Shown here: in pieces, positions 39,402-51,986 of the stretch
Numbering within the stretch: position 1 is the stretch's first letter
Layout of the letters: each line of letters begins with the position of its first letter
Assembly (NCBI RefSeq): GCF_000247605.1
Contig: NC_016894.1
Span: 1,116,001-1,180,000, forward strand
Origin: Acetobacterium woodii DSM 1030
GTDB lineage: Bacteria > Bacillota > Clostridia > Eubacteriales > Eubacteriaceae
Direction: 5' to 3'
Length of the DNA: 64,000 bases
Made by a program: the position numbers and the translations under genes
The notes under the pieces: model-generated
What the model saw: only the letters and a program-made list of their open reading frames with translations
What the model was told of the DNA's origin: nothing
Database searches by the model: none

Positions 39402-39430
39402 TGGACAGTTGTTTTATTTTCAGGTAAAAT
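39402..39430 (+). promoter_or_regulatory. Promoter of the LytTR regulator gene
   Basis: TGGACA (39402-39407), 17 bp, TAAAAT (39425-39430). Its -10 overlaps an upstream in-frame ATG at 39429, so translation must begin at 39459. Confidence 0.7.
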
Positions 39431-39458
39431 GATTTTATTATCGAATAAGAGGTGTTTT

Positions 39459-40184
39459 ATGTTTAGAATAGCGATATGTGATGATGAATATGCATTTTGC
39501 TCACAGATGGAAACGATTATTTTGGAAAACCAAAATGTTTTCACTGAAGAACTTGAGATTAATGTGTTTTATTCGGGAGAAAGACTGGCAAGCTTTATTC
39601 AAAACGAACATGATTTTGATTTGATTTTTCTGGATATTGAAATGGAAGGGCTAAATGGTCTTGAATTGGGGCGTAAAATTCGCGAGGAAATGGATAATCA
39701 AACCATCCAGATTGTTTATGTGTCGGGGCAGAAGCGGTATTATAAGGATCTTTTTGATGTGCGACCGATGCATTTTCTATCAAAACCGCTTGAAACAGAT
39801 AAGTTGATTAAGGATATCAAACTTGCAATGAAACTAAATGGGTGCTTTAGTGGTGTTTTCAGTTATCAAAAAGCCGGTCAAATGCATAAGCTTCCGATCA
39901 AAGACATTATTTACTTTCAAAGCGTCAATCGGGAAATTAAGATTGTCACAACAACAGGGACAAAATTGTTTTATGGAAAATTGCGGGAGGTAAAGGCTCA
40001 GGTTGAAGGGCATCATTTTATGCAGATCCATAAATCTTATCTGGTTAATTACGAACATGTGAGTACATTTAAATACGATCAAACCAAAATGTCAAATGCT
40101 GACTGTTTGCCAATCAGCCAAGCAAAAAGAAAAGCAATCCGGGCATTGCAGATGCGTTATGAGGTCGAAAGGATGGAAGGATGA
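39459..40184 (+). CDS. AgrA-like LytTR response regulator
   Basis: The 241-residue regulator has an N-terminal receiver domain (IAICDDEYAFCSQM; phospho-acceptor Asp in LIFLDIEMEGLNG) and a C-terminal LytTR DNA-binding domain (QMHKLPIKDIIYFQS, MQIHKSYLVNYEHVSTF). LytTR regulators bind spaced repeats upstream of weak -35 boxes. It overlaps the kinase gene by four bases. Start chosen at ATG 39459 behind GAGGTG, because the longer ATG at 39429 lies in the promoter. It is a plausible regulator of the four promoter modules in this island. Confidence 0.92.
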   Translation: MFRIAICDDEYAFCSQMETIILENQNVFTEELEINVFYSGERLASFIQNEHDFDLIFLDIEMEGLNGLELGRKIREEMDNQTIQIVYVSGQKRYYKDLFDVRPMHFLSKPLETDKLIKDIKLAMKLNGCFSGVFSYQKAGQMHKLPIKDIIYFQSVNREIKIVTTTGTKLFYGKLREVKAQVEGHHFMQIHKSYLVNYEHVSTFKYDQTKMSNADCLPISQAKRKAIRALQMRYEVERMEG

Positions 40185-41475
40185 ATCTAAATTCCTACCA
40201 AGTAGTCTATCTGATCGCTAATATTTTCGGGACATATATTTTATATAAATTTATGCATGTATTTTTTGAGCAGAAAGAAGCGAATCATAAGATAGAATTG
40301 TTATCTTTTGGGGGTTATTATATCGTTATTGCGCTCGTGTATCTAATTATTAATATCCCAGTTGTTACGATGGTCTGTAATATGTTTGCTTATTTGGGGT
40401 TGTCATTTAACTATCGAGCAGACATAAAAAGGCGGCTTCTATCAGTATTTTTGATTTATTTAATTTTGATGTGTATTGAATTGATCGTTGCGTTGTTTTC
40501 AGGTTATTTTAATTTCGCTATGATGGTAACAAACAATTATTCGTCAGAATATGGACTGATTGCAGTTCAAATCATGTTATATTTGGTCGTTCGAGTCCTT
40601 AATAATTATAAAAATATCAAACTGGGAGAAACAATCCCGCTGGCCAATTGGATCGCGATTATTTTAATTCCGATTGCATCCTTGTGTATCATCTTAATTT
40701 TTTTTCAAGCAAAGGGACTTTCCCGAGAACAGGTTCTTATTGGCGTGGTACTGGTATTACTCGTTAATTTCACAACTTTTTATTTATATGATGTCATTTC
40801 AGCTTCGATGGTTGATAAAATGGATAAGCGATTGCTTGGGCAGCAAAATAAATACTATCAAAAACAATTTGAATTAATGGAGTCATCATTACAAACAACA
40901 AAGGCAATGCGGCATGACATGCGAAATCATTTATCAGTGATATATGCGTTGGTTGAAAAAGGAGAAACAGCAGCAGCGCTCAAACATTTATCAAAGATGT
41001 CAGAAATTTATGATCGCAAGAAACACTATGCTTGCACCGAAAATATCGATATTGACAGTATTCTGAATTTTAAAATTCGCGAAGCTGAACAGCTCGCGAA
41101 GCTGAACAGCAAAATATAAAAATCGTGCTTGATCTAAGGATTCCGGAAAAAATGAGTATTTCATCATTTGATTTAGCAATCGTTTTGGGAAATTTACTGG
41201 ATAACGCAATTGAGGCCGTTGCTGAGTTGGAAAAAGATCGGCAGATAAAAATCAAAATGAACTATGACAAAGGCCGTTTTATTATTCTGGTGGAAAATCA
41301 TTACCAAGGGCAGCGTTTAAAAATCGGAGATCAATATCTCACAACACATAAAGAAAAAAGCGAACATGGTCTAGGTCTGGAAAATATAAAAAAAGTGTTA
41401 GAAAAATACAACGGGACGATGCAAATTGAAGATACGGAAACTATTTTTTCAGTTCGACTCCTGATGTTTATATAA
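40181..41475 (+). pseudogene. AgrC-like sensor histidine kinase, frame broken by a 17-bp duplication
   Basis: The N-terminal part (to 41119) has about six membrane segments and the AgrC-type His motif MRHDMRNHLSVIY. The C-terminal GHKL ATPase (ILGNLLDNAIEA-type VLGNLLDNAIEAV, then EHGLGLENIKKVLEKY) is in another frame, from about 41112. The break is an exact tandem duplication of 17 bases at 41077-41110. Removing one copy gives one frame of 425 residues with a natural join (KIREAEQQNIKIVLDLRIP). The kinase should be inactive as written, unless slippage or frameshifting restores it. It is coupled to the LytTR regulator. Confidence 0.9.
41077..41110 (+). repeat. 17-bp perfect tandem duplication inside the kinase gene
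   Basis: TCGCGAAGCTGAACAGC occurs twice head to tail (41077-41093 and 41094-41110). It shifts the frame of the histidine kinase by two bases. Loss of one copy by slippage would restore the gene. Confidence 0.97.
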
Positions 41476-41520: not shown

Positions 41521-41536
41521 TTTTGTAAGAAAAAAT

Positions 41537-41605
41537 CTTAGTTCACTACAAAAATATATATCAATTTCAACAAAGATTCGCACAAATAGAAATACATGTT
41601 ATATT
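41537..41605 (+). promoter_or_regulatory. Repeated promoter module, copy A
   Basis: A 39-bp element (41537-41575) with half-sites CTTAGTTCA on the plus strand and CTTTGTTGA on the minus strand is followed by a weak -35 (TTCGCA, 41577-41582), 17 bp, and -10 TATATT (41600-41605). The dyad is one base from the -35, a layout expected for an activator. It drives the four-TM protein gene at 41644. Confidence 0.8.
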
Positions 41606-41643
41606 TAGTCAATAAAAGAAAAAAGGGAATGTGTGAGGAAGAA

Positions 41644-42006
41644 ATGAAACGATCTATAACAACAAAAATTATTGGTTGTTTTTATATTTGTGGAGCTGTA
41701 GTGATACTGTTTTCAATAGGAGTTAATCAAGATGTAAACATTAATGAAAGGGTTGGGTTATCGTTTTTACCAGAATTATATGTGAGAATATTTATTTCCA
41801 TATTCTGGATAGTAATGTCTTATGGATACCTAAATTTAAAAAAATGGGGGTATTGGATAATGCTTATATATTCAATTTATATAACAGTTGTAAGTATAAA
41901 TCTGGCTTTTACATATCAAAATCAAAATCAAATATTTATAGGAAATATAATGTTGTCATCAATTATTATAATCTATACGTTTGATGAACGATTGTCTTTT
42001 GGATAG
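41644..42006 (+). CDS. Unrecognised membrane protein with four hydrophobic segments
   Basis: The 120-residue protein has four hydrophobic stretches and begins MKRSITTKIIGCFYICG. A longer ATG at 41596 is ruled out because it overlaps the -10 of the promoter module; GAGGAAG precedes the ATG at 41644. No family is recognised. The TAG stop is followed, in the same frame, by an AgrD-like core, which suggests that this gene replaced the front of an agrD gene. It may be an immunity or transport accessory. Confidence 0.6.
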   Translation: MKRSITTKIIGCFYICGAVVILFSIGVNQDVNINERVGLSFLPELYVRIFISIFWIVMSYGYLNLKKWGYWIMLIYSIYITVVSINLAFTYQNQNQIFIGNIMLSSIIIIYTFDERLSFG

Positions 42007-42084
42007 GCTTGTGTGTTCTTTTTCTATCAGGCTAAACTGCCGAAAGGTGCAGAAAGACTCAAAAAGTTCGAATGGGAAGCGTAA
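42007..42084 (+). pseudogene. AgrD-like signal peptide core lacking its N-terminus
   Basis: After the TAG of the preceding gene the same frame reads ACVFFFYQAKLPKGAERL, then KKFEWEA and TAA. This matches the C-terminal part of cyclic lactone autoinducer precursors: a Cys, a hydrophobic run, Gln, and Lys-Leu-Pro. There is no start codon or leader helix, so it is a remnant. It retains the Cys that would form the thiolactone. Compare the second copy at 43184, where this position is Gly. Confidence 0.65.
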
Positions 42085-42137
42085 TGACAGAGAGAATCAC
42101 AGATATCCTTATTAGCAAATTGTGGATTAATGGGTAA
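42084..42137 (+). pseudogene. AgrB-like N-terminal stub, copy 1
   Basis: The ATG overlaps the stop of the AgrD-like core. The 17-residue product begins MTERITDILIS and stops early. It is nearly the same as the stub at 43339 (MTERIADILIN) and fits the start of an AgrB peptidase, which often follows or precedes agrD. The rest of the gene is absent. The AgrB identity is inference. Confidence 0.4.
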
Positions 42138-42254: not shown

Positions 42255-43073
42255 TTGACAGAGCTGCTAAAAAATATGAAGTATCGGTATCTGATTCTGG
42301 GGGTTATTTTTACATTGGCGTTAAGTTTGACTCTCTTTACCTTGATGGGGTTAGAAAGTCCATATATTACGTCGTTTGCCGGAATCTTATCATTATATTT
42401 CTTTCCCGTCGGCTGGATGTTTTATCATTTTAGAAAACACCATCTGTCGCTATGGGAATGGCTGCAACGGATAAAATTTAAAATTAGCGAAACGATTGCT
42501 ACAGCAATATTTCCGGAATTACTTGGGATGGGGATCCTAATGTTGATTACCCTTGGACTTACCTTTGTTTTGCCCACGGGGGGATTCAACGAACTGTCTG
42601 AGACCTCCGCCACCAACTGGGGGCTTAATTTTGTATCCGCTGTTGTCTTGGCACCAATCTGTGAAGAGCTGATTTTCAGAGGATTTATCTTTAACAAGAT
42701 GCTGACACGATTTTCACCGGTCAAGGCAGTCATTGCATCATCGGTAATTTTCGGGGCGATGCATCTGACTACTGGGATCAGCCCGACCCTCGTTGGTATG
42801 GTACTGTGTGTGATCTTTATGAAATACGGAAGTCTCCTTCCGTGTATTACCATCCATAGCCTGCATAATTTGGTAGTGGAGCTGCTTAAGTATTTTTCAT
42901 CACTTAGCACCGATTCATCAATTGAAATAAAACCTGCGGATATGCCGCCGTTATTAATTATGTCAGGCATTTTTGTTACTATTGGATTGGTCTGGTTGGT
43001 GCTTTTCTTTCGAAAAAACTGGCATTATGCCGCTGAGTTTATGCAACGATCCCGCGGTGATAACCAATCATAA
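42255..43073 (+). CDS. CPBP family intramembrane metalloprotease
   Basis: The 272-residue polytopic protein has the CPBP (Abi/CAAX) motifs CEELIFRGFIF (EExxxR), FGAMHL (FxxxH) and a late HSLHN. Members process prenylated or peptide substrates and often act in bacteriocin maturation or immunity. The TTG start lies behind GAGGG. Its position between two degenerate agrD units suggests a link to peptide signalling; that is inference. Confidence 0.85.
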   Translation: MTELLKNMKYRYLILGVIFTLALSLTLFTLMGLESPYITSFAGILSLYFFPVGWMFYHFRKHHLSLWEWLQRIKFKISETIATAIFPELLGMGILMLITLGLTFVLPTGGFNELSETSATNWGLNFVSAVVLAPICEELIFRGFIFNKMLTRFSPVKAVIASSVIFGAMHLTTGISPTLVGMVLCVIFMKYGSLLPCITIHSLHNLVVELLKYFSSLSTDSSIEIKPADMPPLLIMSGIFVTIGLVWLVLFFRKNWHYAAEFMQRSRGDNQS

Positions 43074-43081
43074 GAAAAGAT

Positions 43082-43150
43082 CTTAGTTCACTACAAAAAA
43101 ATATATTAATTTCAACAAAGACTCGCACAAATGGAAATACATGCTATATT
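43082..43150 (+). promoter_or_regulatory. Repeated promoter module, copy B
   Basis: The 39-bp dyad (43082-43120) has the same half-sites, a poor -35 (CTCGCA, 43122-43127), 17 bp, and -10 TATATT (43145-43150). It drives the AgrD-like gene 34 bases further on, with AGGGGG and a TTG start. Confidence 0.8.
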
Positions 43151-43183
43151 TAGATCAACAAAAGAAAAAAAGGGGGATGTATT

Positions 43184-43330
43184 TTGAAAAATCTATCATT
43201 AAAATGGTATCGGGTTATTGCAGATATGGCGTTGATGGTAACAACGTTAAACGTTAATACGGCTGGTGTGTACTTCTTCCATCAACCCAAACTGCCGGAG
43301 GTTGGAGAAAAATTTAAAAAGTTCAAATGA
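43184..43330 (+). CDS. AgrD-like cyclic peptide precursor, cyclisation Cys replaced by Gly
   Basis: The 48-residue frame begins MKNLSLKWYRVIADMALMV, an amphipathic leader, and ends with NVNTAGVYFFHQPKLP and a Lys-rich tail. The HQPKLP motif and length match AgrD precursors, where the residue at Gly27 here is normally a Cys that forms the thiolactone. GGT could arise from TGT by one base change. The start is TTG at 43184, seven bases after AGGGGG. It could be a silent allele, or a peptide processed without a thiolactone. Confidence 0.65.
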   Translation: MKNLSLKWYRVIADMALMVTTLNVNTAGVYFFHQPKLPEVGEKFKKFK

Positions 43331-43338
43331 GAAGCTTT

Positions 43339-43410
43339 ATGACGGAAAGAATTGCTGATATCTTAATAAACAATGAAATTATCATTAAGGATTGGAGAAA
43401 CAATAATTGA
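43339..43410 (+). pseudogene. AgrB-like N-terminal stub, copy 2
   Basis: The frame beginning MTERIADILINNEIIIKD stops after 23 residues and overlaps the start of the disrupted membrane gene. It resembles the stub at 42084. The rest of an AgrB is missing, so the cognate processing peptidase is not in this window. Confidence 0.4.
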
Positions 43411-43527
43411 CGAATTACAAATCAATTATAAAAATTGCTATAACACCTTATCTTATCTTAGGATTTGTTATATTGAGGGATTATTTTATAAAATATCAGG
43501 CAGCTAATCTGGATTGTCAACACTTTT

Positions 43528-44322
43528 TTAGACAGATTTTTTGTAGGCTAATTTTCGATAGGCATCTGGTGTGAGATACCCCAATGACGAGTGTATTCGA
43601 ATGTTGTTGTACCAGTTGACATAATCAGAAAGCATGAGCTTTAAATAATCCAATCTGTCAAATGCGTATTGGTTAGCGAATTCTGTCTTGAAGACTTTAA
43701 AAGCGCTTTCAGCAACAGCATTGTCATAAGGGCAGCCTTTGTTGCTCAAGGAACGTTTGATATTAAAGGTTTCAATAACACCGTCAATCACATTATTTTT
43801 AAATTCACTTCCCCGGTCAGTATGGAAAATTGAAATCTGATCCAACCGGTATCTGATCCTGGCAAAAGCTTCATAAACCAGCTGTGCGGTTTTGTTTGGC
43901 CCGGCGCTGTATCCGATAATTTCCCGATTGTAAAGATCAACGATCAGGCAAACATAGTTCCATTTTCCACCAACCCGAACATAAGTCAGATCACTGACCG
44001 CCACTTCCAGTGGTGCCCGTCCATTAAATTCCCGGTTCACTTCATTGGGGACTGGATCCTGATTAACTGGTTGTTTATGGACTTTGTATTGGGCGACGGT
44101 ATAATTCGAAACGAGCCCATTCTCCCGCATAATGCGACCAATCCGTCTTCGGGAAGCAACAATCCCTTTGACTTCAAGTTGATGTTTGATTTTGCGGGTT
44201 CCGTAATTCTTGCGGCTCATTTTGAAAATTTCAATCACATCCGCGATAATCGGATCGACTCCATTCGTCTTTTTTGAAATGTAGTAATAGGTACTTTTGG
44301 GGATATTCAGGACTCTGCACAT
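43528..44322 (-). CDS. IS3-family transposase OrfB
   Basis: OrfB has the DDE integrase core: VAVSDLTYVRV (first Asp), FHTDRGSEFKN (second Asp) and VAESAFKVFKTE (Glu). An N-terminal HTH_21 region precedes it. It is normally made as an OrfAB fusion by a -1 frameshift near the end of orfA (44364-44400). The reading frame stays open upstream of the ATG into orfA (VIRANQDRYSVSAMCR), which fits that mechanism. Confidence 0.93.
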   Translation of the reverse strand: MCRVLNIPKSTYYYISKKTNGVDPIIADVIEIFKMSRKNYGTRKIKHQLEVKGIVASRRRIGRIMRENGLVSNYTVAQYKVHKQPVNQDPVPNEVNREFNGRAPLEVAVSDLTYVRVGGKWNYVCLIVDLYNREIIGYSAGPNKTAQLVYEAFARIRYRLDQISIFHTDRGSEFKNNVIDGVIETFNIKRSLSNKGCPYDNAVAESAFKVFKTEFANQYAFDRLDYLKLMLSDYVNWYNNIRIHSSLGYLTPDAYRKLAYKKSV

Positions 44323-44363
44323 TGCTGATACCGAGTAGCGGTCTTGATTGGCTCGAATAACGT

Positions 44364-44648
44364 CTACTTTCGTCCTACGATCAGCGCTGCCTGCTTTAAA
44401 ATGTCGTTTTCCATTAATAAACGTTGGTTTTCTTTTCTCAAGCGGATCAGTTCATTTTCTTCATCAGTGCGGTTGTCATTTTCTTTGAACGAGCCTGAAG
44501 ACTGATGTTGTTTGATCCATTTATCAAGTGACGATGCTGTTAAATCATATTCTTTAACAATTTCACTTCGGGGTTTTCCGTTAAGGTACAACTGCACCAT
44601 CTGGTTTTTGAATTCATCGGTAAAACTTCGTCTTGCTCTTTTGGTCAT
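44364..44648 (-). CDS. IS3-family transposase OrfA
   Basis: The 94-residue helix-turn-helix protein starts MTKRARRSFTDEFKNQMVQ and ends with a leucine-zipper-like RKENQRLLMENDILKQAALI. It binds the IS ends. The stop overlaps the start region of orfB in another frame. AAGGAG lies upstream of the ATG on the minus strand. Confidence 0.92.
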   Translation of the reverse strand: MTKRARRSFTDEFKNQMVQLYLNGKPRSEIVKEYDLTASSLDKWIKQHQSSGSFKENDNRTDEENELIRLRKENQRLLMENDILKQAALIVGRK

Positions 44649-45097
44649 TTGGCAGGTCTCCTTTATTTATTGTTTTTATTTTACCTGCCCACAATTTTAT
44701 TGTTCAGTTTATTGTAACCTATCCAATCTTCAGATAGGATTATTATGGGTTAGAGTTTTATTTGACTTATTTCTTTACATATCAACAGGAATATTACTTG
44801 CAAGTTTATATGAAACCTATATAAAAATTCGTTTACTAAGAATAACAAAGGTTATTTTGTTATGTAATGTTATAATGTTGATTCTGTTTTATGGTGTAAG
44901 TTATTTTGGAGTTCTGTATTTTGCTAACATTAAAGAATTTTTTGCTTTCAATTTTATTTTGATGGGTTACTACGTTTATTTAATGATTTATAATTTAAAA
45001 AAAGGAGAAAGTTAATGAAAGTATGTTCTAAGATCAATAAATAGCATGATTGAGAACTTGATTTAAAAGACAGTATACAATTTGCGACAAGGTAGAA

Positions 45098-46366: not shown

Positions 46367-46479
46367 ATTGTGCGGAAAAACAACTCTTTACAATCGCCCT
46401 ATTGCAATTTAAATATGGAAATCTGGACGTTTTACCTGATGCAGGGCGTTGTATCGATGCATTGTCTATGAAATGATTT

Positions 46480-46516
46480 ACGAGCAAACTTTGTCTGGAA
46501 GAATGCTCGTTTTTTA
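46480..46516 (+). terminator. Terminator, copy 2 of a repeated block
   Basis: Arms ACGAGCA/TGCTCGT with TTTTTTATTTT, nearly identical to 41484-41520, including the flanks TTTACGAGCAAACTTTGTC. It directly precedes promoter module C. Confidence 0.8.
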
Positions 46517-46532
46517 TTTTGCAAGAAAAAAT

Positions 46533-46601
46533 CTTAGTTTACTACAAAAAAATATATCAATTTCAACAAAGACTCGCACAAATAAAATTTTATGGTATTC
46601 T
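46533..46601 (+). promoter_or_regulatory. Repeated promoter module, copy C
   Basis: The 39-bp dyad (46533-46571; left half CTTAGTTTA) precedes -35 CTCGCA (46573-46578), 17 bp, and TATTCT (46596-46601). The distance from the dyad to the -10 is the same as in the other copies. It drives the small-protein genes at 46713 and 46856. Confidence 0.75.
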
Positions 46602-46712
46602 ATTTTCGAGTCGGTAAATGTTATCCCATAAATTCAAGTACTTAGTTGTAGCTCAAATAAAGTACGAGTACATTTAGGTGTACGCCTATATAATAATAAG
46701 TGAGGGATGCTA

Positions 46713-46829
46713 ATGGGCAAAAAATGGAAACAAATACGGCGTATTAGTATGGAATTATTATTGACATTTGGAATTGTGATAATGATAATAACACAAGTAA
46801 CCGAACGAAATAATTTAATTGAACTGTAA
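46713..46829 (+). CDS. Unrecognised 38-residue single-span membrane peptide
   Basis: A frame from ATG at 46713, seven bases after GAGGG, encodes a basic start (MGKKWKQIRRIS) and one hydrophobic segment (MELLLTFGIVIMIITQV). It has no Cys or Gln-Pro, so it does not look like AgrD. It lies 27 bases ahead of the next membrane protein gene, downstream of module C. It may be a small toxin, leader or transport accessory. Confidence 0.45.
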   Translation: MGKKWKQIRRISMELLLTFGIVIMIITQVTERNNLIEL

Positions 46830-46855
46830 CTATTTGAAATATTTCGGGGGAAAAC

Positions 46856-51738: not shown

Positions 51739-51874
51739 ATTGTCCTCCTTGATATTTTCACGCAATCTTTATTCTCGAAAATTGGCTACGTTTTCAATTA
51801 GGTTATTTAACAGCAATTTTATCATATCTGGGCTCCAAAAGCAAAAGACATCGGGATCGGGAATAAGAAAAAAT

Positions 51875-51943
51875 CTTAGTTCACTACAAAAAAATATATA
51901 AATTTCAACAAAGATGCGGATGAACAAAAAAATATGATAGAAT
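51875..51943 (+). promoter_or_regulatory. Repeated promoter module, copy D
   Basis: The 39-bp dyad (51875-51913; left half CTTAGTTCA) is followed by a poor -35 region (TGCGGA, 51915-51920), 17 bp, and -10 TAGAAT (51938-51943). The remainder of the 51739-52272 gap holds only short frames: a peptide frame at 51987-52079 and a 21-codon basic frame near 52190. The first intact gene downstream is at 52273. Confidence 0.7.
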
Positions 51944-51986
51944 TAGATCAATAGGAAGATTAATTTTAATTAAAAGGCAAGAATAA

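Follow-up and report, generated by a model that had tools for sequence, protein, structure and literature searches.

The window, a 64,000-nucleotide stretch of the Acetobacterium woodii DSM 1030 chromosome, contains an agr quorum-sensing locus with an AgrA-like response regulator, an AgrC-like sensor kinase, an IS3-family insertion, and two copies of agrD, of which one lacks the ring-forming Cys and the other the leader, with agrB complete beside neither (Table 1). In sister genomes, the genes follow the order AgrA-like LytTR response regulator, AgrC-like GHKL kinase, promoter, agrD, agrB, and most of these operons are complete; response regulator, kinase, agrD and agrB are all complete in the corresponding locus of A. 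bakii, A. tundrae, A. dehalogenans and one Acetobacterium metagenome-assembled genome (MAG). The same four components, a precursor, AgrB, a GHKL kinase and a LytTR regulator, make up the AgrBDCA system of Staphylococcus aureus (PMC5789755), although the order here is regulator, kinase, D, B, and the window lacks the thiolactone Cys, AgrB and an intact kinase.

Table 1. Features of the agr locus in the window, with positions counted from the first nucleotide of the window.
Feature	Position	Strand	Evidence and state
AgrA-like LytTR response regulator	39429..40184	+	PF00072 and PF04397; frame open
AgrC-like sensor kinase	40181..41475	+	frameshifted; 17-bp tandem duplication near 41079-41110
Promoter module of agrD copy 1	41525..41613	+	agrD codons 1-26 replaced by unrelated ORF 41596-42006
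agrD copy 1 remnant and agrB start	42006..42118	+	ACVFFFYQAKLPKGAERLKKFE.., Cys kept, leader lost; agrB MTERITDILIS.., soon stop
Promoter-like module of agrD copy 2	43070..43158	+	conserved upstream of agrD in all sister loci
agrD copy 2	43184..43330	+	48-aa AgrD homologue, C28G; TIGR04223 31.1 bits and orthologue alignment
agrB copy 2 remnant	43327..43385	+	first ~20 codons; remainder gone in 836-bp deletion, junction 43385/43387 relative to L040
Membrane-protein gene, behind agrB in sisters	43407..45015	+	split by IS3; homologous segments 43387-43510 and 44725-45031
IS3-family insertion	43511..44729	-	transposase ORFs 43528-44322 and 44364-44648 (rve and HTH_Tnp_1); AATCT at both ends

The second agrD copy begins with a TTG start codon, with GGGGGATG before it, and runs for 48 codons to a TGA stop (MKNLSLKWYRVIADMALMVTTLNVNTAGVYFFHQPKLPEVGEKFKKFK). 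A preliminary description made from the DNA alone took this frame for an AgrD-like precursor in which Gly replaces the ring-forming Cys, and proposed comparison with AgrD profiles and with orthologues; both comparisons agree with that assignment. Model TIGR04223, whose curated cut-off is 19 bits, matches the translation at 31.1 bits (E value 1.8e-7); the match comes from NCBIfam alone, as a Pfam search of the 48-residue ORF returned nothing. Full-length orthologues occur in six other Acetobacterium genomes, with 70-81% identity and no internal gaps; the named relatives in the genus are A. bakii, A. dehalogenans, A. tundrae and A. wieringae. AgrD proteins of A. bakii, A. dehalogenans and A. tundrae, likewise assigned to TIGR04223, share with the window sequence its start, its leader, an NTA motif before the ring and a tail of the form QPKLPEG..EK.KKFK, together with the upstream promoter module and the synteny of the locus. 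Unrelated tails in the orthologues had been named in advance as grounds for rejecting the homology, but the tail proves to be conserved: both the leader and the C-terminal recognition tail of the window sequence (QPKLPE..EKFKKFK) align with the orthologues.

At residue 28 the window sequence has Gly, encoded by GGT, where all sister orthologues have Cys, encoded by TGT or TGC. Cys occupies this column in 29 of 29 relatives from the genus, the family and more distant Clostridia, and neither Gly nor Ser is found there in any of the 29; the set leaves out L015, which looked like a chance match, and L064, which gave no clean reading. The leader has two other changes, C8W and A14D, and the tail has two, G40V and A41G. 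Of these, C8W, G40V and A41G are private to the window and fall where the other six sequences do not vary, while D14 lies in the leader helix at a position where the sisters show A, V or I. Overall, the window sequence departs from the rest at four columns that are invariant in the other six, compared with one or two such departures for every other sequence. The layout of leader, core and tail in the preliminary description holds for the leader and the tail, but the core had probably been drawn too long. Judged from the size of AIP rings, the ring segment would span just G-V-Y-F-F, which leaves HQPKLPEV.. outside the core, as part of the C-terminal recognition tail. The reading frame remains uninterrupted, behind a conserved promoter and a good ribosome site.

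Sister Acetobacterium loci combine the ring Cys with an intact adjacent agrB, whereas the window combines Gly with a mere stub of agrB. Homology to the sister locus L040 ends at 43385 and resumes at 43387 with DNA lying 836 bp further on (L040 9659 to 10496), and agrB and the spacer behind it have therefore been deleted; the junction is clean, and about 20 codons of the adjacent maturation enzyme are left. The gene that follows agrB in the sisters is also disrupted, in this case by the IS3-family element. In the AgrC-like kinase, a 17-bp tandem duplication leads to a frameshift and a premature stop in what is an intact 425-residue frame in the sisters, leaving the window without an intact receptor kinase.

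The first agrD-agrB copy sits directly behind the kinase and is reduced to 113 bp, across which it shows 89% DNA identity to agrD-agrB of A. dehalogenans. The ORF that took the place of its first 26 codons has membrane-protein character; no Pfam model matches it above cut-off, and the fetched sister loci contain no relative. The repeated promoter module that the preliminary description placed upstream of the second copy is present there, as one of four occurrences of an 89-bp sequence in the genome, a single chromosome of 4,044,777 bp, all of them within the window. The module precedes agrD in every sister locus. By eye, it comprises a pair of TTAGTT/TTAATT-like elements, spaced by about 23 bp, together with an extended -10 element (TGnTAtATT). 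Control of the module by the AgrA-like regulator is plausible, and the conserved promoter of agrD copy 2 may be active still. Because module copies 1 and 3 also share DNA lying behind the kinase gene (family D2), the repetition of the module is best read as a result of duplication of agr cassettes; a duplicated cassette is seen in A. dehalogenans too.

The Gly-bearing ORF is thus, with high probability, a decaying agrD relic within an inactivated agr quorum-sensing locus of Acetobacterium. It is a descendant of AgrD that lacks what defines a functional AgrD, with neither Cys nor Ser available to form the ring. With agrB deleted next door and a frameshift in the kinase, the locus represents ordinary quorum-sensing decay rather than the source of a new kind of signal. 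The preliminary description had offered two possibilities, a dead peptide or one that processing turns into a signal, either linear or cyclised in another way. The TIGR04223 match, the conserved tail, Cys in the sisters, an agrB of about 20 codons, the frameshifted kinase, the IS3 element and the truncated other agrD all favor the first, while no evidence was found for the second, and the maturation enzyme it would call for is absent.

Ser-type (lactone) variants of AgrD exist, such as FsrD and the AgrD of S. intermedius. There too the ring Cys is substituted, but the substituting Ser is a nucleophile and AgrB is kept, whereas the Gly in the window provides no nucleophile, its side chain being incapable of lactone or thiolactone formation. 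In the ancestral state that we infer, AgrB would have cut AgrD behind a ring segment of five residues and the thiol of the Cys would have closed the thiolactone, yielding a cyclic peptide able to activate the AgrC-like kinase and the AgrA-like regulator, the latter probably acting on the promoter of the module. In the present state, with no nucleophile at Gly, the cognate AgrB gone and the kinase frameshifted, the peptide, if it is transcribed and translated at all, should stay an uncut, membrane-bound precursor and then be degraded.

It is very unlikely, in our estimate, that the Gly peptide is instead released in linear form, or otherwise processed, to act as a signal or inhibitor after cleavage either by a distant AgrB (G000:C1:662637) or by a CPBP-family intramembrane protease encoded immediately upstream of agrD (42255-43073). 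An open frame behind a conserved promoter is compatible with such a role, and a link between CPBP proteases and peptide pheromone systems exists in some bacteria. This CPBP gene, however, scores 19.7 bits against the MroQ equivalog model NF046050, for which the cut-off is 270 bits, and of the sister loci fetched, that of A. tundrae alone has it, about 6 kb away from agrD. As for AgrB, no complete enzyme that might serve the window AgrD is encoded in the window, and the genome has one elsewhere, its sole complete AgrB, at G000:C1 662637-663197, about 0.5 Mb away. That enzyme is divergent, with 25% identity over 148 residues to the sister AgrB of the window locus, and it sits beside an AgrD of its own. 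The second AgrBD locus (G000:C1:662637-663411) likewise pairs AgrB with a TIGR04223 AgrD, but there AgrB is complete, Cys is present in AgrD (STSACFLFVNQPEEP), the order is B then D, and the tail is different; the two AgrD proteins are 29% identical over their alignment. In S. aureus, AgrB processing is group specific, and both Cys and the C-terminal tail are reported to be required for AIP formation (PMC5789755). The frameshifted receptor kinase and the lack of any Gly-bearing sequence among the 29 relatives argue further against an alternatively processed signal.

Slightly more doubtful still is a role in which, after loss of the circuit, the Gly AgrD has been retained as a membrane or secreted peptide that is uncyclised but has an activity of its own, expressed from the surviving agr promoter, for example as an amphipathic leader peptide or an AIP competitor. 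Least credible is that the Gly codon reflects a mistake in the sequencing or assembly of an otherwise ordinary agrD: GGT is one base away from a Cys codon and the locus is known from one genome assembly, but C8W, A14D, G40V, A41G and an 836-bp deletion with a clean junction are no single-base miscalls, and, contrary to the preliminary description, a correction to TGT would not restore an ordinary AgrD, because there would be neither maturation enzyme nor receptor and the locus would be inactive even with Cys.

Substitution patterns were compared as well. Over the 48 codons of agrD, pairwise dN/dS is 0.16-0.25 between the window and its sisters and 0.08-0.23 among the sisters. In the kinase past the frameshift, private amino-acid changes and silent changes number 14 and 4 in the window, against 12 and 11 in the sisters together (Fisher p = 0.11), an excess of private amino-acid changes that is suggestive only. 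Both measures fall short of significance because the gene is so short, and relaxed selection on the window agrD is not statistically shown; the case for decay rests on structural lesions, not on substitution rates.

Lesions are found elsewhere in the group. In genome G002, homology in agrB stops after about 71 residues. In A. wieringae (L039:4520-4720), a short tandem duplication at the start of agrD breaks the frame, with agrB intact and the kinase partial. In genome G011, a second agrD copy has lost part of its leader. Damage to the agr locus is therefore recurrent in this group. The agrD lesion of A. wieringae, in a sister species, is independent of that in the window. Loss of agr function is familiar from S. 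aureus, where collapse of repeats by slippage is reported for reversible agr mutants. The 17-bp repeat in the window kinase could in principle collapse in the same manner; agrB is deleted regardless.

Literature on agr in A. woodii and on AgrD in Acetobacterium yielded nothing on this locus. What appeared to be a new type of AgrD signal resolves to a degenerate agrD copy within an agr locus that is itself broken, and this strain of A. woodii is probably without the agr circuit that several sister acetogens have kept. The probable absence of the circuit bears on studies of quorum sensing in acetogens; for Clostridium autoethanogenum, an influence of agr on the Wood-Ljungdahl pathway has been reported (PMC8748961).

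Some further observations concern neighboring sequences and database labels. An agr locus on a contig labelled as an Ignavibacteriae MAG (L072) encodes the identical AgrD to an Acetobacterium MAG (L010/L073); the contig is probably mis-binned. Module copy 4, at 51863-51951, has no AgrD-like ORF behind it. Module copy 3 lies within 46467-46830, accompanied by post-kinase DNA, and is followed by a 40-residue ORF (MGKKWKQIRRISMELLLTFGIVIMIITQ..) that matches no family; its homologue in G002 (L035:19319-19435) is 79% identical.
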